A stretch of DNA of 38,436 nucleotides from an uncultured Opitutia bacterium (GTDB lineage: Bacteria; Verrucomicrobiota; Verrucomicrobiia; Opitutales; Opitutaceae). The notes below the pieces were generated by a model that had not been told where the DNA came from, made no database searches, and saw only the letters and a list, made by a program, of their open reading frames with translations. Position 1 is the stretch's first letter; every line of letters starts with the position of its first letter. The DNA is taken from the NCBI GenBank assembly GCA_903896015.1, contig CAITWF010000096.1, positions 1-38,436 on the forward strand, given 5' to 3'. Shown one piece after another: positions 331 to 10,225 of this stretch. The translations under genes were made by a program, and so were the position numbers.

Positions 331-2070
331 ATGAACCCTGCCCAGACTGATTCCACGCCCGCCCCAGCGCGCGCTTTCGGCTTCGGCGCACTCGTGTTCG
401 GACTCACGTTGCTCGCGTATCTTCCGGCCGTGCGGGCTGGATTCATATGGAACGACAGCGACTATGTGACGGCCCCTGAGTTACAATCGCTCCACGGACT
501 CGGCCGCATTTGGACCGAGGTTGGCGCCACAGAGCAATACTACCCGCTACTCCACAGCGCATTTTGGGTCGAACATCATCTTTGGGGCGACGCTCCGATC
601 GGGTATCACCTCGTAAATATTCTGCTTCACGCCGGTGCGGCGTGCCTCTTTGGAGCAGTCCTGAAAAAACTAGCCGTTCCTGGTGCGTGGCTGGCCGCAC
701 TGCTCTTTGCCCTTCATCCGGTGTGCGTCGAGTCGGTCGCTTGGGTTTCCGAGCAGAAGAACACTCTCTCGCTTGTGCTCTATCTGGCAGCCGCGCTGTA
801 CTATTTGCGCTTCGATGCCTCGCGGGCCCGCCGCGACTATCTCGCGGGTTTTGGCTGGTTTGTTGCGGCACTGCTGGCGAAGACCACGACGGCTACTTTG
901 CCCGCGGCCTTGCTCGTGGTGTTCTGGTGGCGGCGCGGCCGGATCGAGTGGCGGCGCGATGTTGTGCCGCTGCTGCCATGGTTCGTGCTCGGCGCGGTGC
1001 TCGGGCTGTTTTCCGCTTGGGTCGAGAAGACCTACATCGGCGCCGAGGGCAGTGAGTTTACGCTTTCGGTGCTTGAGCGTGGTCTGCTGGCTGGACGCAT
1101 CGCGTGGTTTTATTTTGGGAAACTGCTCTTCCCGTTTTACCTCATCTTCATCTATCCCCGATGGACGATCGATGCGGGTGTGCCGTGGCAGTGGCTTTTT
1201 CCCCTTGGGCTAGTCGTGGCAGTGACCGCGCTGTGGCTATGGCGCGATCGGGCGCGGGCGCCGCTCGCGGTGCTGCTCCTGTTCGTCGGCGCGCTCTTTC
1301 CCACCCTTGGATTCTTCAATGTTTTTGCGTTCATGTTTTCCTATGTTGCGGATCACTGGCAGTATTTGCCGTGCCTGGCGGTGCTGGCAGGCGGGGCGAC
1401 ACTGCTCATGCGTGCGACGCGACTCATTCGTGTGCTGCTGCTCGGTGGGCTCGGTGTGCTCACGTGGCAGCAGAGCCGGATGTATGCTGACATGGACACG
1501 TTCTATCGCACGACGCTCGCCCGCAATCCCGCCTGTTGGATGGCCCACAATAATCTTGCGAGCCTCCTGCACGAAGCCGGCCGCGATGACGAAGCGATGG
1601 CGCATTACGAGGCGGCGCTGCAGGCCAAGCCTGACTCCGACAAGGCTCACACCAATCTCGGTGTCATCTTGCGCGCGCGACACCAGTTGTCCGCGGCTAT
1701 CGGTCACTTTGAGGCGGCGCTTCGGCTGATGCCTGATGAGGGCGTGTATCAGGATAACCTCGCCGGTGCGTTGCGCGAGGCGGGCCGCGCGCGCGAGGCT
1801 CTCCCGCACCACCGCGCGACGGTGCGCCTCCTGCCGAACTACGCGGCCGGGCACAACGACTACGGCGTCACGTTGCGCGAGCTCGGCCGCGCCGACGAAG
1901 CGCTGATGCAATTCGAGGAGGCGGTACGGCTCGATCCCAACTCGGCGCCGGCGCACTTGAATCTCTCGCTGTCTTACTCGCTCGTCGGTCGCGAAGTCGA
2001 CGCGCGGATGCAATACGCTGAGGCGCGCCGCCTCAATCCCGCGCTACCTGATCTCGGAATTTCCCGTTAG
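331..2070 (+). CDS. TMTC-like GT-C glycosyltransferase/TPR membrane protein (paralogue 1)
   Basis: This 579-residue integral membrane protein has about 370 residues of hydrophobic segments followed by roughly five TPRs (residues about 390-575). The first luminal/periplasmic loop after TM1 holds GFIWNDSDYV, then YYPLLHSAFW and GYHLVNILLHAG. The last two resemble the conserved YRPL and GYHLVNVLLH stretches of eukaryotic TMTC O-mannosyltransferases. LHPVCVESVAW and the FYFGKLLFPFYLIFIYPRW block (DUF1736-like) support the same family. The likely role is transfer of a lipid-linked sugar to an exported acceptor, with TPRs binding the partner; this is inference. The acidic motif is N41-D42-S43-D44 where its two neighbours have DDD. 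I chose ATG at 331; an in-frame TTG at 313 adds six unlikely residues. It faces paralogue 2 tail to tail with 96 bp between stops and no clear terminator. Confidence 0.82.
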   Translation: MNPAQTDSTPAPARAFGFGALVFGLTLLAYLPAVRAGFIWNDSDYVTAPELQSLHGLGRIWTEVGATEQYYPLLHSAFWVEHHLWGDAPIGYHLVNILLHAGAACLFGAVLKKLAVPGAWLAALLFALHPVCVESVAWVSEQKNTLSLVLYLAAALYYLRFDASRARRDYLAGFGWFVAALLAKTTTATLPAALLVVFWWRRGRIEWRRDVVPLLPWFVLGAVLGLFSAWVEKTYIGAEGSEFTLSVLERGLLAGRIAWFYFGKLLFPFYLIFIYPRWTIDAGVPWQWLFPLGLVVAVTALWLWRDRARAPLAVLLLFVGALFPTLGFFNVFAFMFSYVADHWQYLPCLAVLAGGATLLMRATRLIRVLLLGGLGVLTWQQSRMYADMDTFYRTTLARNPACWMAHNNLASLLHEAGRDDEAMAHYEAALQAKPDSDKAHTNLGVILRARHQLSAAIGHFEAALRLMPDEGVYQDNLAGALREAGRAREALPHHRATVRLLPNYAAGHNDYGVTLRELGRADEALMQFEEAVRLDPNSAPAHLNLSLSYSLVGREVDARMQYAEARRLNPALPDLGISR

Positions 2071-2166
2071 GAATTCGCCGCACGGCAATCGTCCGAAGAA
2101 AAGATTCCCGCGCACTGGGCCGTGAGTTCGGGTGCCGATGATCAGTGGGATTCCCGCAGACGAAAT

Positions 2167-4131
2167 TCAGGGGGCGCGTCGGCGCGCGGCCTGAAAATGC
2201 TCTTGCGCTTCGTCATCACGTCCGAGTTGGCGGAGGGCGAGCGCGAGTTGATAGTGCGCATCAGCAAAATTGGGATTTAGCTCGAGCGCGCGGCGAAAGC
2301 GCGCCAGCGCCTCGTCCGTTCGGCCTGCCTGCAGGAGCGCTTGGCCGTAGATAAAAGGATGCAGTGGCTGTTGCGGTTCGAGCTGCATGGCGCGCTCAAA
2401 ATGAAGCACGGCTTCGGTGAAGTGACCGGCGACCGTCAGGCTTGCGGCCCAGTTCGACTCGGCCGTCGCATAGGCCGGGCGAAAATGAACCGCCTGCGCA
2501 AATTGGGCGATCGCTTCGTCGATTCGGCCGCAACGTTGGAAGGCGAGTCCGAGGTTGGAGTGCGCGACGGAATAGTCCGGTCGAAGCCGCGTGGCCGCTT
2601 CGAATCGTGCGATCGCTTCATCGATGCGGTCGAGATCCATGAGCGCGAGGCCGGTGTTGTTGAGCGCTTCCAGGTAGCCGGGGCGCAACTGCAGGGCTCG
2701 CTCAAAATGCGGCAAGGCTTCCAACGATCGTCCCAGCCGGCGCAGGCAGGTGCCAAAATTGTTTTCGGCCTCGGGCAGGTTCGGATTGATCTTCAGCGCG
2801 GCCTCGAGGTGCGGCACCGCTTCGTCGACACGTCCGGATTGCAGGAGCGCACCGGCAAGGTTCGTTTGGGCCATCCACGCAGTTCGATTTACCTGCAGCG
2901 TCGCCTCGTAGAGTGCGATCGGAGTGCGGTAGGTTTGAGCTTGGCGCCACGTGAGCACACCAAGACCCGTGAGGACCGCGAAGGAACTCGCACGCATGGC
3001 GCGGGGCCAGTGCGCGGAGGCCGCCGAGCCACCCGCCGCGATCAGCGCGAAGATGCCGAGACTTGCAAGGTATTGGAAGTGATCGGCGACGAAGGAAAAG
3101 ATGAACGGGTAAACGTTCACGAAGCCGAGCGCAGGAAACAGCGTGCCGATGAAGAACAGCGCTCCCGCGAGCGGACCACGTCGCGCTCGCAGCCACAGCG
3201 CGACCAACACGGCGGCGGCACCGAGCGGAAAGAGGTATTGCGCCGCCGACGAAGGGTCGATTACCCATCGCGGATAGATAAACGCGAGGTCCGCCGGCCA
3301 AAGCAGTTTGCCGAGATAGAACCACACGACCCGGCCGGCGAGCAGGCTTCGTTGCAACGGATCGAGCGCGAAGTCGCGTCCGCTCGCGCCTATCAGTGTA
3401 CGCTCAATCCATGCGGTGACGACGCCCCCCGTGATAGCCAACGCGAACCACGGCAGCAACGGCGCGACATCGCGCTTCGGGTCGAGCCGGCCGCGTCGCC
3501 ACCAAAACACGAGCAGCAGCGCCGCCGGCAACGTGGCGGTGACGGTTTTGGTCATGAGCGCGAGGACGAAGAGTCCTGTGGCGAGTGCATAGGCCTGCCG
3601 GCGGCGGTTGTCTTCGAAGCGCAGGTAGGCCAGGGCGGCGCAGAAATAGAGCACGGCTGAGAGCGTGTTTTTCTGCTCCGAAATCCACGCGACCGATTCG
3701 ACGCCGACGGGATGAAGCGCGAACAGAAGTGCGGCGAACCATGCGCCGCGAACGCCAAGGCGGCGAAGCGTCAGGCCCGCGAGGCACGCGGCGGTCGCAT
3801 GCAACAGTACATTGATGAGGTGATAGCCAAAGACAGCGTCACCCCACAATTGATGCTCCAACCAGAAGGCCGAGTGCAGGAGGGGGTAATACTGCTGGGT
3901 GGCGCCGGGCTCAAACCAGATGCGGCTGAGGCCCGCCAGCGATTGAAGTTCTGGCTTGGTCAGATGGGCGTCATCGTCCCACAGCCAGCCGCCGTGGAGC
4001 GAGGGCGCGTAAACCGCGAGCACGAGGACAAAAATCAGTCCGTAGATCCAAAAGGTCGGCCACGCCAGCAGGTCGTCGGAGGGGGTGATTCCGGTCGCGA
4101 CAGGCGGTGGGGGTGCGGGACGTTTCGTCAT
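2167..4131 (-). CDS. TMTC-like GT-C glycosyltransferase/TPR membrane protein (paralogue 2)
   Basis: This protein has 654 residues from ATG 4131. A frame extending to 4275 would overlap the divergent gene and adds a hydrophilic, low-complexity leader, so I reject that start. TM1 is at about residues 24-45, followed by the loop motif WDDDAH with D52, D53 and D54, then YYPLLHSAFW, GYHLINVLLHAT, LHPVGVESVAW and the DUF1736-like WFYLGKLLWPADLAFIYPRW. About ten membrane segments precede seven TPRs (residues about 415-650). Paired acidic residues in the first extracytoplasmic loop are typical of GT-C enzymes and are intact here. It is closer in sequence to paralogue 1 than to paralogue 3, sharing the PELQSL, SEQKNTLS and LLHSAFW stretches. 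It is transcribed divergently from paralogue 3 across 134 bp. Acceptor and sugar donor are unknown. Confidence 0.83.
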   Translation of the reverse strand: MTKRPAPPPPVATGITPSDDLLAWPTFWIYGLIFVLVLAVYAPSLHGGWLWDDDAHLTKPELQSLAGLSRIWFEPGATQQYYPLLHSAFWLEHQLWGDAVFGYHLINVLLHATAACLAGLTLRRLGVRGAWFAALLFALHPVGVESVAWISEQKNTLSAVLYFCAALAYLRFEDNRRRQAYALATGLFVLALMTKTVTATLPAALLLVFWWRRGRLDPKRDVAPLLPWFALAITGGVVTAWIERTLIGASGRDFALDPLQRSLLAGRVVWFYLGKLLWPADLAFIYPRWVIDPSSAAQYLFPLGAAAVLVALWLRARRGPLAGALFFIGTLFPALGFVNVYPFIFSFVADHFQYLASLGIFALIAAGGSAASAHWPRAMRASSFAVLTGLGVLTWRQAQTYRTPIALYEATLQVNRTAWMAQTNLAGALLQSGRVDEAVPHLEAALKINPNLPEAENNFGTCLRRLGRSLEALPHFERALQLRPGYLEALNNTGLALMDLDRIDEAIARFEAATRLRPDYSVAHSNLGLAFQRCGRIDEAIAQFAQAVHFRPAYATAESNWAASLTVAGHFTEAVLHFERAMQLEPQQPLHPFIYGQALLQAGRTDEALARFRRALELNPNFADAHYQLALALRQLGRDDEAQEHFQAARRRAP

Positions 4132-4265
4132 GCGGGATGCGGACGCTTTGGTATCAGACGGCGAGGGCGGAGACCGGGAAAGGAAAAAGGATGAAGCATC
4201 GCGCGGATTTGCCGACAGCGGCGCGTTGACATCATGGGGTTTGTCGGTGCGCTCAAATTTGCCCC

Positions 4266-6620
4266 ATGCTTCCATCCTCCGATCCAGCGACCAGATCGAT
4301 TTTCACGCGCCCGGGTCGGGTATGGTGGGAGGGGGCGGTGCTCGCCGTTGCGGTTGTCCTGGTCTATTTGGGGACGTTGTCGCACGGCTTCATCTGGGAC
4401 GACGATCTCCACGTTTACACAAACCCGCGCATCATTGGGCCCGACGGATTGCGGGAAATCTGGACGACGGCGGCAGCGAATTATTTTCCGCTCGTGCTGA
4501 CGAATTTCTGGGCGCAGCACGCGCTGTGGGGCTTGGCGCCGTTCGGTTACCACGCGGTTACGATCGCGTGTCACATGCTGTGCGCGGTGTTGCTCTGGCG
4601 TGTGTTGCTCGCGCTGCGGGTGCCCGGTGCGTGGCTCGGCGCTGCGCTTTGGGCGCTGCACCCGGTGCAGGTGGAGTCGGTCGCGTGGATTTCCGAACTG
4701 AAGAACACGCAGTCGGGAGTTTTCTTCCTGCTTTCGATTTTATTTTTCGTGCGGTGGATTGATGCCGCGCCGACGGACGGCCCGAAAAAACGCTACGCGT
4801 TCGCGCTCGTCGCTGCCGTGCTCGCGCTCCTCAGCAAGCCTTCGACCGTCACGCTGCCGGTCGCGCTCGCCCTGATCACGTGGTGGCGGCGGGGCGGGCT
4901 GCGCGCGAGCGATCTGGTCGCACTCGCCCCTTTCTTTCTGCTCTCGGCGATCGCGAGTGGCTGGACGATTTGGGAGCAGCGCGTGCACTCGGGCGCGCAG
5001 GGTGCGGAATGGAACGAGACTCTCGTTGAGCGCCTCGCGATTGCCGGCAAGACCGGGTGGTTTTACCTCGGAAAACTGGTGTGGCCGAGGCCGCTCATTT
5101 TCATCTATCCACGCTGGGAAGTGGCCGCGCGGGCGCTCGATTTGGTTCCGGCGGCCGGGGCGCTGGTGGTGCTCGTCGTGTTATGGTGGCGGCGAGTGCC
5201 ATGGCGGGCGGGCTTTGTGGCGGCGGTTTATTTTGTCGCCCTGCTTTTTCCTGTGCTCGGCTTCTTAGACGTCTTCTTTTTCCGCTATTCGTTTGTCGGA
5301 GATCATTTCCAATATCTTGCGAGCATGGGGCCGCTGGCGCTTGCCGGTGCTGCGATTGCGCGATGGCCGAGGCGTGTCGGACTCATATCGGCGGGGGCTT
5401 TGCTGCTGACCGTGGGGTTCCTTTCGGCCCGCCAAAGCCGGATTTATGCGAGCAACATTGCTCTGTGGCGGGCGACCGTCACCGACAATCCCGCCGCGCA
5501 CATGGCGTGGATGAATCTCGCCGACTCGCTTTCGAAGGAAGGCCGCCATGATGAGGCGATCGCCACCTTTCACCAGGCGAATGCGCTGCGGTCCGATGAT
5601 CCCGATGGGCACGCCGATCTCGGCTGTGAGTTGGTGCTGGTGGGCCGCTCCGTAGAGGCGCTGCCCGAATTTGAAACGGCGCTGCATTTGCGGCCGAATA
5701 ATCCCGAGACGCACTCCAACTTCGCTAATGCATTATGGTTTCTCGGGCGACATGAGGAAAGCCTCGTTGAGTATCAACGCGCGCTCGACCAGCGGCCCGA
5801 TTTCGGCGCGGCACATAACGGTCTCGGTGCAGCACTGGCGCAGCTTGGGCGCGCGAACGAAGCGCTGCCCCATTTTGCCGCGGCCCTTAAGGCCAATCCG
5901 CGGCACGTCGAAGCACACGACAATCTTGGCAACGCCCTGCGCGCGCTGGGCCGCTTGCCCGAGGCAATCGTGGAACACCAAACGGCGGTGAAACTGCGGC
6001 CCGGATTCGCCGAGGCCGAAAACAGCCTCGCGCTCGATTTCGAGGCGAGCGGCCGCGCGGCGGAGGCGATCGCGCACTTTGAGCGCGCGCTGGAATTGCG
6101 CCCCGATTTCGTCGGGGCTGCCGGCGGTCTGGCGATAGTGCTTTCCTCGGTTGGTCGCGCCGACGAGGCCCGCCGCCGGCTCGAGATCGCTGTGCGCCTC
6201 GCACCGAACTCTGCCGCCGCACACAACAACCTCGGTTCATTTTTTGCGGAGACCGGCCGCCCGACGGAAGCGATCGCGGAATTCGAGCAGACCGTCCGGA
6301 TCGAGCCCAACTGGGTACGGGCGCGGATGAATCTCGGCGGAGCCTTCGCCGCTGCGCAGCGCTGGCTCGACGCCGCGAAACAATTCGAGGCGGCCGCGAA
6401 ACTTTCACCCGATTCCACCCAGGCTTTCGCGGGCCTCGGCGTCGCGCTGGTCAACGCCGATCGACTGGAGGCGGGCGCGCGGAGTTTTGTTCGCGCACTT
6501 CAACTCAACCCGAAGTCCGCCGAACTCCACGCGCAGCTCGCCCAAGTACTGCACGCGCTCGGCCGCGATCGCGAGGCACAGTCGCACCTCGACGAGGCCG
6601 CCCGACTCCGGCGCGAGTGA
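4266..6620 (+). CDS. TMTC-like GT-C glycosyltransferase with long TPR tail (paralogue 3)
   Basis: This 784-residue protein starts at ATG 4266. A multi-pass membrane region (about residues 18-390) carries the loop motif GFIWDDDLHV (D45-D47), then NYFPLVLTNFW, GYHAVTIACH, LHPVQVESVAW, ELKNTQSG and FYLGKLVWPRPLIFIYPRW, all equivalent to motifs in the two neighbouring paralogues. Eleven TPRs follow (about residues 410-780), twice the number in paralogue 1, with the usual W/L-G-Y/A-F-A-P spacing of 34 residues. The membrane part is the most diverged of the three. The stop codon TGA sits in the palindrome TGATCA (6618-6623), which also supplies the stop of the convergent gene, so there is no spacer. 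The TMTC-like O-glycosyltransferase role is inferred from architecture; a TPR membrane scaffold without enzyme activity is the alternative. Confidence 0.82.
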   Translation: MLPSSDPATRSIFTRPGRVWWEGAVLAVAVVLVYLGTLSHGFIWDDDLHVYTNPRIIGPDGLREIWTTAAANYFPLVLTNFWAQHALWGLAPFGYHAVTIACHMLCAVLLWRVLLALRVPGAWLGAALWALHPVQVESVAWISELKNTQSGVFFLLSILFFVRWIDAAPTDGPKKRYAFALVAAVLALLSKPSTVTLPVALALITWWRRGGLRASDLVALAPFFLLSAIASGWTIWEQRVHSGAQGAEWNETLVERLAIAGKTGWFYLGKLVWPRPLIFIYPRWEVAARALDLVPAAGALVVLVVLWWRRVPWRAGFVAAVYFVALLFPVLGFLDVFFFRYSFVGDHFQYLASMGPLALAGAAIARWPRRVGLISAGALLLTVGFLSARQSRIYASNIALWRATVTDNPAAHMAWMNLADSLSKEGRHDEAIATFHQANALRSDDPDGHADLGCELVLVGRSVEALPEFETALHLRPNNPETHSNFANALWFLGRHEESLVEYQRALDQRPDFGAAHNGLGAALAQLGRANEALPHFAAALKANPRHVEAHDNLGNALRALGRLPEAIVEHQTAVKLRPGFAEAENSLALDFEASGRAAEAIAHFERALELRPDFVGAAGGLAIVLSSVGRADEARRRLEIAVRLAPNSAAAHNNLGSFFAETGRPTEAIAEFEQTVRIEPNWVRARMNLGGAFAAAQRWLDAAKQFEAAAKLSPDSTQAFAGLGVALVNADRLEAGARSFVRALQLNPKSAELHAQLAQVLHALGRDREAQSHLDEAARLRRE

Positions 6621-7658
6621 TCAGCGCATTAGCTCCTGAGCCTCATCGCGGCCCGGCTCATCGAGAAGTTGGATGCACGACGCCGGCCCGAGATCAGGAT
6701 TCGTCCATGAGTTAAACGCCCAGACGGCTTTCTTGTCCGGTGTGACCTCGATCACTTGCACGATCTTCGGCCAGTCCTCACGCTTCACGCCGGCGGTCCA
6801 GTTGCAGAGCACCGTGTTGCCGTTCGCGAGGCGCGTGACCTGATGGACGCCGTTGAGCGTGATGCCCGGCAGATCGCCGTTCTTCACTTCCCAGACGATC
6901 GCGCCGCTCGGATTGATTTCGCGGACAAACGCGTGCTGGTTGCCCGCGATCATCGTGTTGCCGTTGGCGAGCCGCACGGCGTCCCAGACGGACGGTGCGT
7001 CGCACGACCAGACCTCGTTGAAGTTTTTGTCGTATTCGATGACGCGGCCGAGGTTCATGTGGGCGATGAGATAGGTGCCGGCACGCGTGAGGCGGACGTT
7101 GCGAAACTGTCCGTGAATCGACTTCGCGTCGACGGGCTCCTTGGTCGTCATCGCGTGCTCCATCGCGATTTTCCCGGTCGCGAGGTTGAAGAGCATCAGC
7201 TTTGCCGGAAGGCCGTTTTGCATGAACAGCACTTGGTCGTTTCCGACTGGAATCACCGCGTGACACTCCGCCCAAATCGCCTTGCCGTCTGGGCCGGCGC
7301 CGACCTGCGGGCACTTGTAGTCGTGGATCGTTTTTCCGTCGGCGGTGATTTTGCGCCAGCCGGTTTTGTAGGCGAAGAGAATGTCGCCGTTGGAGAGCCG
7401 ATGGATGTCGGAGAATTCGCTGAGTTGGCCGTTGCTCTCGTCCTTCGTGGGAATCTGGTAAGTCCACGCGACCTCGCCGCCGCGGATGAGAAACAGCGTT
7501 GCGAGCGGCTTCCGCGTGTCCCACTCGCCGGTGTAGAGAAAATCGTGCTGCGCAAGCCCGCGGCCCGGCAAGACCGGTGGTGGAGCAGGATAGGGCGCGG
7601 CTGGAGTTTGCGCGTTGGCGGCTGCAGCGAGACAGAAAAACAGGGTAAAAATTTTCAT
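6621..7658 (-). CDS. Exported beta-propeller protein (PQQ/ASST-like repeats)
   Basis: Starting at ATG 7658 the protein has 345 residues and a clear Sec signal peptide, MKIFTLFFCLAAAANAQ. An in-frame GTG at 7709 would place 17 residues ahead of the signal, so I reject it. The mature part is built of repeated blades with the pattern RLxNGDxLFAY...G or RLANGNTMIAGN...EINPSGAIVWEV, typical of eight-bladed PQQ-like or arylsulfotransferase-like propellers. Repeats are visible at about residues 85-110, 130-150, 195-225, 235-260 and 280-300. No arylsulfotransferase active-site His block is evident, so I assign no enzyme role; binding or sensing in the periplasm is plausible. The gene ends convergently against paralogue 3 with no intergenic base. 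It is divergent from the TIR gene across about 160 bp. Confidence 0.72.
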   Translation of the reverse strand: MKIFTLFFCLAAAANAQTPAAPYPAPPPVLPGRGLAQHDFLYTGEWDTRKPLATLFLIRGGEVAWTYQIPTKDESNGQLSEFSDIHRLSNGDILFAYKTGWRKITADGKTIHDYKCPQVGAGPDGKAIWAECHAVIPVGNDQVLFMQNGLPAKLMLFNLATGKIAMEHAMTTKEPVDAKSIHGQFRNVRLTRAGTYLIAHMNLGRVIEYDKNFNEVWSCDAPSVWDAVRLANGNTMIAGNQHAFVREINPSGAIVWEVKNGDLPGITLNGVHQVTRLANGNTVLCNWTAGVKREDWPKIVQVIEVTPDKKAVWAFNSWTNPDLGPASCIQLLDEPGRDEAQELMR

Positions 7659-7816
7659 CGGGGAGGGGTAGATGGGCCGCAGTAAAAACGATCGCGCGGG
7701 TCGGCGCACGCCAAAGCTGCGGGCGGTGGGTGGCGCGCACCCCGTGAAATCCGCTCGCCACTCCGCCGTCGGGTGCGCAGAAACGGCGGCAGATTTGCTG
7801 CTGGACTTTCCCCATC

Positions 7817-7897: not shown

Positions 7898-10225
7898 TTG
7901 CGCGGCTTCGGCATCGAAGTCTGGTTCGATCAGGATGCCTTGCGCGGGGGCGACGCGTGGGATCAGAAAATCCGCCGCCAGATCAAGGACTGCACGCTGT
8001 TCCTCCCGGTCATTTCGCAGCACACGCAGACGCGCACCGAGGGCTATTTCCGGCTCGAATGGAAGCTCGCCGTCGAGCGCTCGCACCTCATGGCCGAGGG
8101 TAAGCCGTTCCTCGCGCCCGTCGCGATCGACCGCGCGCACGAGGAGGACGCCGTCGTGCCGCCGGAGTTCATGCGCGTGCAATGGACCCGCCTGCCGCAG
8201 GGCCTGCCCACGCCGGAATTTGTCGAGCAAATCAAGCGCCTCCTCGAAACCCGCGGCAAAGTCGCGCCGGCCCCGGGCCGCGAACCCCTCACGACGACCT
8301 CGCTGCCAATGGCGCCCGCGGGGCTTGCGCCGAAATTTGGGGTGTTCGCCGGCTTCGTGATCCTGCTCCTGATGGGCGGTGGCCTTTATTTTTTGCTGCG
8401 ACCCTCCGCGAAAGAGTCGTCCGCTCCGCCGAAGATCGCCGCGGAATCGAAAATCACTTCGGTCCCTCCCGCCGCCAACCTCCCGCCGCCGACCTCTCTC
8501 GCGTCGGCCGCTGCTTTGCTCGGTGAGAAATCTATCGCGGTCCTCCCTTTCGCCAATCTCAGCTCGGAAAAGGAAAACGAATTCTTCGCCGACGGCGTGC
8601 AGGACGATGTCATCACCAACCTCGCGAAAATCCGCGACCTCACCGTCATCTCGCGAACGTCCACGCTCGCGTATCGCGACGCCGCCTCGCGCAACCTGAA
8701 AAAAATCGCCGGTGAACTCGGCGTCGCGACCGTGCTCGAAGGAAGCGTGCGCCGCGTCGGAACCAAGGTGCACATGAACGCGCAGCTCATCGACGCGCGC
8801 ACCGACGCCCACCTCTGGGCCGAGACCTTCGACGGCGACGCCGGCGACATCTTCGCGTTGCAAGCCAGTCTCGCGCAAAAAATCGCCGCCTCGCTCAAGG
8901 CCACGCTCACCCCCGGCGAGCGCACGCTCATCGAGCGCCGGCCGACCCAAAATCAGGAAGCCTACGAACTCTTCTCGCGCGCCGAGCTTCTCAATGAAGC
9001 GCTGAGCCCGGTATCGCCTCGGTCGGCCTACGAACCGATTGTCGCGCTCTACGAGCAGGCGGTCGCCAAGGATCCGGCATTCGCGCTCGCGTTCGCTCAT
9101 TTGTCAGCACTCCACGGTTTGATGTATTGGTTTCCGGGCGTTGATGCCACCGCCGATCGTCGCGCGCGCGCCGAAGCCACGCTCGCGGCGGCGCGGCTGC
9201 TCGCGCCCGATGCGCCCGAAACCCATTTTGCGCAGGGTGAGTTTGCCTATCGGTGCAACGACGACTGGCAGGGAGCGTTGGCGGAATACGCGGTGGCCGA
9301 GCCAAGCATGCCCAATGATGCCGCACTACAATATGAGATCGGCACTGCACATCGGCGCCTGCTGAATTTTACGGAGGCAGTGCGGCGCTTTGAGCGAGCC
9401 GTGGCGCTGAATCCGCGCGATCTCAATGCTGTCATTGCACTGGCCGAAACACCGCTAGCGATGCGTCGGTATGCCCAAGCCAGGACGCTCGCAGCGCAAC
9501 ATCTCGCCATCTTCCCCGGCGATCGGCGCCTTCGCAGCGTGCTCGTTGCCGCCCAATACGAGTTGGACGGCGATTTTCCTGCCTTTAACCAGGCTCGCGC
9601 CGAAATGGGCGTGGGTAGCATCGATCCCTTTGCGCTAGGGCTCGCCTATCGGACGGCGCTCTTGGCGCGCGACTTTTCGGCGGCGGAGCGCATCCTGGCC
9701 GATTCGCGCCTCGATCCGAATGTTTTGCTGGAAGCCACGGTTCTCCTGTTTCCCGGATGGGGCGGTTCCACAGGTGCAGTCGGCGGAGGCCTCAATTCCA
9801 GGGCGCGCCATCATGCGCTGGTGGCGTTCCTAGTCGGAAAGCGGGAGGCGGCCGCGAAGTTTGCTGATGAGCTGATTGCATCTTATCGCCAAGACAGCCA
9901 GACGCCGCGCCAGAAACCCAACGTGTTGCTGGTGATCGCCGAAGCCGAAGCCGAAGCCGGTCGGGTCGACGATGCGATTCGCGATGGCCAAGCGGCGCTC
10001 GCCCTTTATCACTCCGATGATGAGTATGCGGCGCTCAGAAGTGAAATGCGCTTTGCCACGATTCAACTCATTCTCGATCGGCGCGACGACGCGCTGGCAT
10101 CGCTGCGCCGATTAATGAGCCAGCCGGGAACTCTCCCGCAGGCGCTCCGCACCGACCCAATCTGGTCGCGGCTAAAGGACGACCCGCGGTTCGAGGAAAT
10201 CCTGAAATCTGCGAAGGTGTTTTGA
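7898..10225 (+). CDS. TIR-domain / TM / TolB(FlgO)-like / TPR protein
   Basis: The open frame from TTG 7898 gives 775 residues. The original start is probably ATG 7817, separated by an amber codon. Order of parts: remainder of a TIR domain (GIEVWFDQDALRGGDAW, LFLPVIS, FRLEWKLAVERS; residues 1-125), a linker rich in Pro, one membrane helix (about 148-167), and a TolB/FlgO-like domain (about 210-345) with SIAVLPFANLSSEKENEFFADG, VISRTSTLAYR, VLEGSVRR and HLWAETFDGD. TPR-like helices fill the rest. This arrangement recurs in bacterial proteins related to CadC/adenylate-cyclase-type sensors and suggests an inner-membrane signalling protein with a cytoplasmic TIR and a periplasmic sensor. Without the first strand, the TIR fold made from 7898 would be incomplete. 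The stop lies 7 bp from the stop of the convergent GH2 gene. Confidence 0.8.
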   Translation: MRGFGIEVWFDQDALRGGDAWDQKIRRQIKDCTLFLPVISQHTQTRTEGYFRLEWKLAVERSHLMAEGKPFLAPVAIDRAHEEDAVVPPEFMRVQWTRLPQGLPTPEFVEQIKRLLETRGKVAPAPGREPLTTTSLPMAPAGLAPKFGVFAGFVILLLMGGGLYFLLRPSAKESSAPPKIAAESKITSVPPAANLPPPTSLASAAALLGEKSIAVLPFANLSSEKENEFFADGVQDDVITNLAKIRDLTVISRTSTLAYRDAASRNLKKIAGELGVATVLEGSVRRVGTKVHMNAQLIDARTDAHLWAETFDGDAGDIFALQASLAQKIAASLKATLTPGERTLIERRPTQNQEAYELFSRAELLNEALSPVSPRSAYEPIVALYEQAVAKDPAFALAFAHLSALHGLMYWFPGVDATADRRARAEATLAAARLLAPDAPETHFAQGEFAYRCNDDWQGALAEYAVAEPSMPNDAALQYEIGTAHRRLLNFTEAVRRFERAVALNPRDLNAVIALAETPLAMRRYAQARTLAAQHLAIFPGDRRLRSVLVAAQYELDGDFPAFNQARAEMGVGSIDPFALGLAYRTALLARDFSAAERILADSRLDPNVLLEATVLLFPGWGGSTGAVGGGLNSRARHHALVAFLVGKREAAAKFADELIASYRQDSQTPRQKPNVLLVIAEAEAEAGRVDDAIRDGQAALALYHSDDEYAALRSEMRFATIQLILDRRDDALASLRRLMSQPGTLPQALRTDPIWSRLKDDPRFEEILKSAKVF

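Follow-up and report, generated by a model that had tools for sequence, protein, structure and literature searches.

Three adjacent GT-C/TPR genes of an uncultured Opitutia bacterium belong to a large family of candidate bacterial glycosyltransferases with TMTC-like architecture and replaced TMTC motifs

The TMTC proteins, which constitute the glycosyltransferase family GT105 (PMC8476585; PMC6801728), have a topology of 11 helices with tetratricopeptide repeats (TPRs) in the lumen (PMC7801869; PMC6801728). Seven motifs have been defined around the modelled donor site of TMTC, whose metal ligands are predictions from modelling, and full-length homologues with TPRs have already been published from many prokaryotes, for example AMJ42_05695 of Deltaproteobacteria DG_8 (PMC7801869). 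A bacterial precedent is the pgf operon of Streptococcus mutans, in which a glycosyltransferase family 2 (GT2) protein and a PMT_2 protein act on surface proteins (PMC5856776). TMTC enzymes matter in animals; the role of their bacterial relatives has no account in the literature searched, and no publication addressing what bacterial GT-C proteins with TPRs do was found in a search that left out most subscription journals. Here we describe three adjacent genes, P0001, P0002 and P0003 (the triplet), located at positions 331 to 6620 of a 38,436-nucleotide stretch (the window; contig CAITWF010000096.1) from an uncultured Opitutia bacterium of the Opitutaceae. They are three of the 22 matches to their family in the source genome and not a special set, and protein O-glycosylation, which had been proposed for them, is a candidate function.

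The same plan, a polytopic membrane domain of 11 helices followed by TPRs, was found in the three proteins, and profile matches and structural models bear out the TMTC-like two-part architecture that the original prediction had described. P0001 (579 aa) is encoded on the forward strand at 331..2070, with its GT-C membrane domain at about aa 1-401 and five TPRs at aa 403-572 (repeats and tail, 1537..2067). P0002 (702 aa) is encoded on the reverse strand at 2167..4275, with the membrane domain at aa 74-448 and seven TPRs at aa 467-702 (2170..2877); its N-terminus, about aa 1-61, is of low confidence in the model. P0003 (784 aa) lies on the forward strand at 4266..6620, with the membrane domain at about aa 1-400 and 11 TPRs at aa 412-784 (5499..6617), the last of them weak (7.4 bits). 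Repeats were counted with a profile seeded with six P0002 repeats and extended by matches in all three proteins, leaving out two weak matches within the membrane domains (P0003 residue 118 and P0002 residue 400), and the rise of 5, 7 and 11 repeats reported earlier was obtained again. The best Pfam TPR E-values were 2.9e-17, 4.3e-39 and 2.4e-49 for P0001, P0002 and P0003, respectively, and all seven P0002 repeats also appear as helix pairs in an AlphaFold2 model. These values, and the relatives found in other genomes (below), place the architecture beyond chance. The membrane domains are 59% identical between P0001 and P0002, 42% between P0001 and P0003 and 44% between P0002 and P0003. Because the middle gene is reversed, on the strand opposite to both of its neighbours, and its start overlaps that of P0003 head-to-head by 10 bases (4266..4275), the triplet as a single operon or transcription unit was ruled out. 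Neither this orientation nor the overlap figured in the original prediction.

The AlphaFold2 model of P0002, built from 69 aligned sequences, had a mean predicted local distance difference test score (pLDDT) of 92 and a predicted template modelling score (pTM) of 0.87. A Foldseek search with this whole model returned solely TPR proteins among the best 50 matches, and the membrane domain of P0001 was therefore folded alone (55 sequences; pLDDT 93.5, pTM 0.92); a sequence search of the PDB with P0002 also gave TPR matches among the best 60 of 195 rows. With the P0001 domain, the Foldseek matches in the PDB at ranks 1-19 were all GT-C enzymes (best E 1.1e-3, none below 0.001). VIA-align 2 gave STT3 in its top rows (yeast STT3, 8agb_A: Z 21.1, 311 residues aligned, 4.7 Å), and also Pmt4 (9i5k_A: Z 19.1, 329 aligned, 4.8 Å), Pmt1-Pmt2 (6p25_B: Z 18.8, 326 aligned, 4.6 Å) and ArnT (5f15: Z 18.7, 313 aligned, 4.8 Å), with AftD and ALG12 lower at Z of about 16. 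Sequence identity in the STT3, PMT and ArnT rows was 8-14%, and these Z values do not separate protein-acceptor from lipid-acceptor enzymes. No TMTC structure was among the PDB matches listed, and one may stand further down. The GT-C fold proposed earlier is well supported by the modelling, the P0002 and P0001 models matching oligosaccharyltransferase (OST), PMT and ArnT, and for P0003 it is presumed from the 42-44% identity to the modelled P0001 and P0002 domains. Like STT3, Pmt1/2/4 and ArnT, the triplet proteins would thus have the GT-C fold over the membrane domain, and unlike them they carry other C-terminal domains.

Under the 11-helix reading of the P0002 model, which defines the inside and outside loops, Lys and Arg residues number 13 in 40 inside versus 7 in 157 outside for P0001, 14 in 49 versus 8 in 157 for P0002, and 13 in 45 versus 10 in 155 for P0003. 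The positive residues thus lie mainly in the presumed cytoplasmic loops, which predicts a periplasmic position for the conserved loops and the TPRs. The order of the domains, the 11 helices and the predicted position of the TPRs on the far side of the membrane are as in animal TMTC1-4, and a bacterial sugar-transferase part followed by TPRs is also what the published description gives for AMJ42_05695.

The triplet further shares with animal TMTC1-4 the DD of loop 1 (in two of the three proteins), the Lys of KE(T/Q)xxT, the Pro of YRP and the final Tyr of ERxxY. The DD (TMTC motif M1, loop EL1) had been claimed for all three; it is present in the predicted first periplasmic loop of P0002 (D100-D101, 3973..3978, reverse strand) and P0003 (D45-D46, 4398..4403, forward strand), and P0001 has ND at this position (N41-D42, 451..456, forward strand). 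Likewise, the announced YxPL motif was found in all of them (YYPL in P0001 and P0002, YFPL in P0003), and GYHxxNxLLH is kept in P0001 and P0002, the corresponding stretch of P0003 being GYHAVTIACH. Unlike in TMTC, the Arg of M2 (ending YRP) is missing, with YYP or YFP instead, and the RxD of M3 (EL2) is replaced by QKN or LKN (in EQKN or ELKN). M4, KE(T/Q)xxT (EL3), keeps its Lys and has KT or KP for KE; the DW of M5 (EL4) is IY, followed by PRW; and M7, ERxxY (EL5), reads DHFQY or DHWQY, with the Tyr kept and DH for ER. The TMTC profile PF08409 (DUF1736), absent from the triplet, matched none of 55 family members at E up to 1, a scan in which the HMMER filters drop most matches above about E 0.1, and it matched nothing in the source genome, where no control genome gave a match in the same scan. 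An assignment to TMTC from architecture alone was rejected, since there was no PF08409 match and the pocket motifs were replaced; judged by profile and motifs, the triplet falls outside TMTC (GT105), to which the original prediction had likened it. As for PMT_2 (PF13231), P0002 passes the cut-off (26.7 versus 26.1 bits) and 29 of the 55 members match at E up to 1, unlike P0001 and P0003, which gave no match at E up to 0.1. The description consulted of PgfM1 of S. mutans mentions 16 putative transmembrane domains and no TPRs, unlike the triplet (PMC5856776).

The motifs divide the family into two classes. We scored 111 near-complete domains, taking the Glu after the loop-3 Lys (position 244) as the divider; the Lys is kept in all 111, and the Glu follows it in 19 and is absent from 92, including the triplet. 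Among the 19 domains with Glu244 (class T), all have Arg before the loop-1 Pro, and 18 have an acidic residue at the DW position and 18 the Glu of the last motif, the exception in both counts being the outlier L137. The corresponding figures for the other 92 domains (class O) are 0, 1 and 0. Typical motifs are GRP, QRxE, KE, D/EY and EHRMY in class T and YYP, EQKN, K[T/S], IYPRW and DHFQY in class O, so that the triplet belongs to the class less like TMTC. This split offers a simple rule that separates animal-like from other bacterial copies. Matches to PF08409 were found in 4 of 194 genomes of the phylum, two of them over the Pfam cut-off, and the matching proteins of three of these genomes are near the TMTC set (LYRP, GRxD/GRxE, KE, HDYS, GERLxY); L160 and L161 exceed the cut-off and two L162 genes are below it, one of which (L162:3564-5243) has SD for DD. 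At the M3 position, the class T rows displayed have QRxE and L160-L162 have GRxD or GRxE. The protein of L163 (genome G093), also below the cut-off, fits the TMTC motifs in part, its M5 being without Asp and its M7 without Tyr.

In an alignment of 121 domains, nine residues are invariant (P0002 numbering): D101, P131, H159, H188, P189, K243, Y320, P327 and Y334. The acidic residue in the first periplasmic loop that is a trait of GT-C enzymes is therefore present at the D101 position in all 121 domains, and the first position of the DD pair is D in 112, N in eight and E in one. The presumed catalytic base could be either of these two loop-1 positions. Five rows with the Asn variant form a single branch of the tree described below (Shimodaira-Hasegawa-like approximate likelihood ratio test, SH-aLRT, 83), which includes a relative in a genome of the same genus, and one member, L098, is preceded at a distance of 60 bases by a GT2 gene similar to PgfS and ArnC. 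The Asn variant of the P0001 type looks like a maintained subgroup rather than decay.

A single-sequence search of the source genome gave 16 matches and a search with profile A3 gave the 22, two of which are partial; they comprise nine of class O, the triplet included, 11 of class T and two outliers. One divergent GT-C relative outside both motif classes is encoded on contig 111 of the source genome (L137:5337-7633), and a second divergent relative, without the loop-3 Lys and on a very long branch, was observed at L159 (G000:C101:5622-6194). Relatives of the membrane domain occur in 32 of 57 genomes searched and in 70 of 145 genomes of a sample of the phylum (at most 12 candidates scored per genome), both counts including the source genome. 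Among named genomes, a pattern was matched by 531 stretches, of which 508 encode a relative; 79 loci were kept, mostly from Opitutae and also from Acidobacteriota, Planctomycetota, Rokubacteria, Gemmatimonadetes and records titled Betaproteobacteria; at least two family genes were found in eight of the 79, by open reading frame (ORF) calls. Arrays were also observed in other families of the phylum: G145:C29 has at least eight copies within 26 kb, G110:C1 has at least eight within 32 kb and G173:C64 has at least five. The search of the phylum further showed three family genes in a row on G016:C23. Two matched stretches contain one in-frame TGA each and are possible broken copies (G031:C76:8561-9769 and G024:C93:36853-37536).

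A quick tree of the membrane domain was built from 75 domains of the bacterial set, with most motif columns excluded and a midpoint root; 28 of its 71 inner branches are open and several long branches were flagged. The row nearest to P0001 comes from the same-genus genome and those nearest to P0002 from two fen Opitutia genomes; P0003 is isolated, close to the base of its class. These placements led us to reject a recent tandem duplication on the spot, the closer relatives of P0001 and P0002 being found in other genomes. Class T and the four PF08409-matching rows are each set apart by a branch with support 100; class O requires two changes, as two outliers share an unresolved fork with it. In the same-genus genome G001, an apparent orthologue of P0003 (85% identity over 54 aa) lies 61 bases behind a TonB-dependent receptor gene, on a contig that ends inside the orthologue, so that P0001 and P0002 may still be next to it there. 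Within G001 the nearest relative of P0001 is L138, and none of 12 other window proteins tested scored above 90 bits across the 18 kb stretch to which it belongs. A gene matching GtrA/DPMS-TM was observed at L142:4543-5010 of the same-genus genome, flanked on one side by the GH2 orthologue and on the other by the TonB receptor gene that precedes the apparent P0003 orthologue. The suggestion that three diverged copies kept side by side constitute a special module was not sustained, as the genome has 22 matches, clusters recur elsewhere, the three are not mutual closest relatives and no donor-synthase gene was found among the 19 other window ORFs scanned.

The neighbours of family genes were examined in 102 loci: the 79 named ones, 22 of the source and same-genus genomes, and the initial 16 kb of the window. 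Genes were mechanical ORF calls, the seeds of the TonB and GT2 sets had themselves been observed in family loci, and orthologous loci (L126/L141 and L134/L145) were counted more than once. A TonB-receptor-like gene adjoins 22 of 114 family genes, compared with 30 of the 742 background genes of these loci (Fisher p 7.5e-8), and in 19 of these 22 cases the receptor gene immediately precedes the family gene in the same orientation. By class, the adjacency was found for 17 of 92 class O domains, four of the 19 that carry Glu244 and one of the three left unclassed. After merging at 70% identity, 8 of 55 groups have a receptor-adjoining member (p 0.003) and at 60% identity 6 of 28 (p 0.001), in a test that counts any member of a group and hence favours enrichment. 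Pfam domains of receptors or outer-membrane barrels were present in seven of eight receptor-like neighbour genes scanned.

GT2 genes adjoin 8 of 114 family genes versus 6 of 754 background genes, or five loci if the pair L134/L145 is counted once; the eight are those of L098, L109, L113 and L137 and two each in L134 and L145. The partner in L137 is one of the two outlier relatives, with the GT2 gene directly downstream on the same strand; this GT2 gene was found independently at C111:35408-36031, the start of its first ORF call being over-extended. All seven GT2 genes scanned match Glycos_transf_2, and they match models of polyprenyl-phosphate-sugar synthases below the cut-offs, the best being that of L098 on PgfS (248 versus 500 bits). 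A homologue 77% identical to the L098 GT2 is encoded on contig 43 of the source genome, about 5 kb from the sole GtrA/DPMS-TM match. A conserved cluster of a TonB receptor, a class T gene, a convergent GT2 gene and a second class T gene was found at L134:3676-12156 (source contig 24) and L145:3964-12458 (same-genus genome), and the L134 cluster is the best candidate in the source genome for a unit of donor synthase and transferase. Some relatives thus resemble the Pgf system in adjoining a PgfS-like GT2 gene, which the triplet does not among the window ORFs scanned. The receptor and GT2 genes next to family members point to candidate acceptors and donors open to direct test.

Taken together, we give about an even chance to the reading in which the triplet proteins are periplasm-facing polyprenyl-phosphate-sugar transferases, probably modifying envelope proteins with a sugar that we do not predict. 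Class O would consist of inner-membrane GT-C glycosyltransferases of a bacterial TMTC-like branch. At the periplasmic face, their membrane domain may remove one sugar unit from a polyprenyl-phosphate-sugar whose phosphate is held by Lys243 (P0002 numbering), and a loop-1 Asp may serve as the base. Acceptor binding would fall to the TPRs, the likeliest acceptor being an envelope protein that is exported, for example a TonB-dependent receptor of the outer membrane; the differing TPR lengths could fit the paralogues to different acceptors. Several observations weigh against this: no activity is known for any class O enzyme in the material examined, the proposed TMTC metal-ligand residues are replaced, with Asn in place of the first Asp in P0001, neither a TonB receptor gene nor a GT2 gene lies next to the triplet, and 92 of the 114 family genes adjoin no receptor gene by the criterion used. 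The GT-C fold, moreover, also covers enzymes acting on lipids and glycans (ArnT, AftD, ALG12), and it is possible, if rather doubtful, that the triplet enzymes decorate an envelope glycan or lipid, like ArnT or GtrII, and that their TPRs bind a partner protein instead of the acceptor. The fold match to ArnT is about equal to those of the PMTs (Z 18.7 versus 19.1 for Pmt4), AftD and ALG12 are at 16, and 9 of 55 members match GtrII (PF14264) at E up to 1, the best at 5.8e-5; on the other hand, the top structural rows are the protein-modifying STT3, even if Z does not separate functions, and the enriched neighbours are receptor genes, glycan-assembly genes not having been tested systematically as neighbours.

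We consider it unlikely that some or all class O proteins are catalytically dead scaffolds or sensors that keep the GT-C shell to bind a lipid-linked sugar. Such a role would agree with the replacement of the Glu after the loop-3 Lys in all 92 class O domains, with the single acidic residue at the DW position among them and with the change of Asp to Asn in the P0001 subgroup. Chain U of glycosylphosphatidylinositol (GPI) transamidase, which we take to be PIG-U, is moreover among the fold matches (8imx_U, Z 14.6). PIG-U has been described as a GT-C shell that binds a lipid-linked sugar without catalysis (PMC7801869). However, D101 and K243 are invariant (121 of 121), L098 of the Asn subgroup has its PgfS/ArnC-like GT2 gene close upstream, and the missing metal ligands do not show that class O is inactive, because those of TMTC themselves come from modelling (PMC7801869). 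That the triplet represents true bacterial TMTC orthologues O-mannosylating proteins, as first proposed, seems to us very improbable: the order of domains, the 11 helices, the predicted periplasmic TPRs, the loop-3 Lys and, in two of the proteins, the DD are as in TMTC, but PF08409 matched neither the 55 members nor the source genome, the departures at M2, M3, M4, M5 and M7 are not seen in the PF08409-matching proteins of the phylum, which keep most of these residues, and class T and the PF08409-matching proteins each form a separate branch. A bolder form of the glycosyltransferase reading, to which we assign a small probability, is that class O represents a bacterial protein-glycosyltransferase family in its own right, with TPRs and a pocket that functions in the absence of the metal site proposed for TMTC, many members being dedicated to the TonB-dependent receptor encoded directly upstream. 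If so, a genome with twenty-odd copies would run a receptor-by-receptor glycosylation system.

The 19 other window ORFs were picked by length, shorter ones lying outside the scan and some of those scanned being possibly on the wrong strand. They include hydrolases, lyases, a TonB receptor, a TIR-TPR protein and an ABC ATPase, among them genes for polysaccharide breakdown. The exported proteins that had been noted around the triplet as possible acceptors are present, and they are a general feature of the region. Two genes away from the triplet, at 7898-10225, a TIR-domain protein with TPRs is encoded, and a similar TIR domain (47% over 116 aa) was observed at L129 10383-10721, near another class O paralogue. 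Next to P0003, the product of 6621-7709 gave a Mala_s_1-like match and a sub-threshold arylsulfotransferase match, and has a 71% identical relative in G024.

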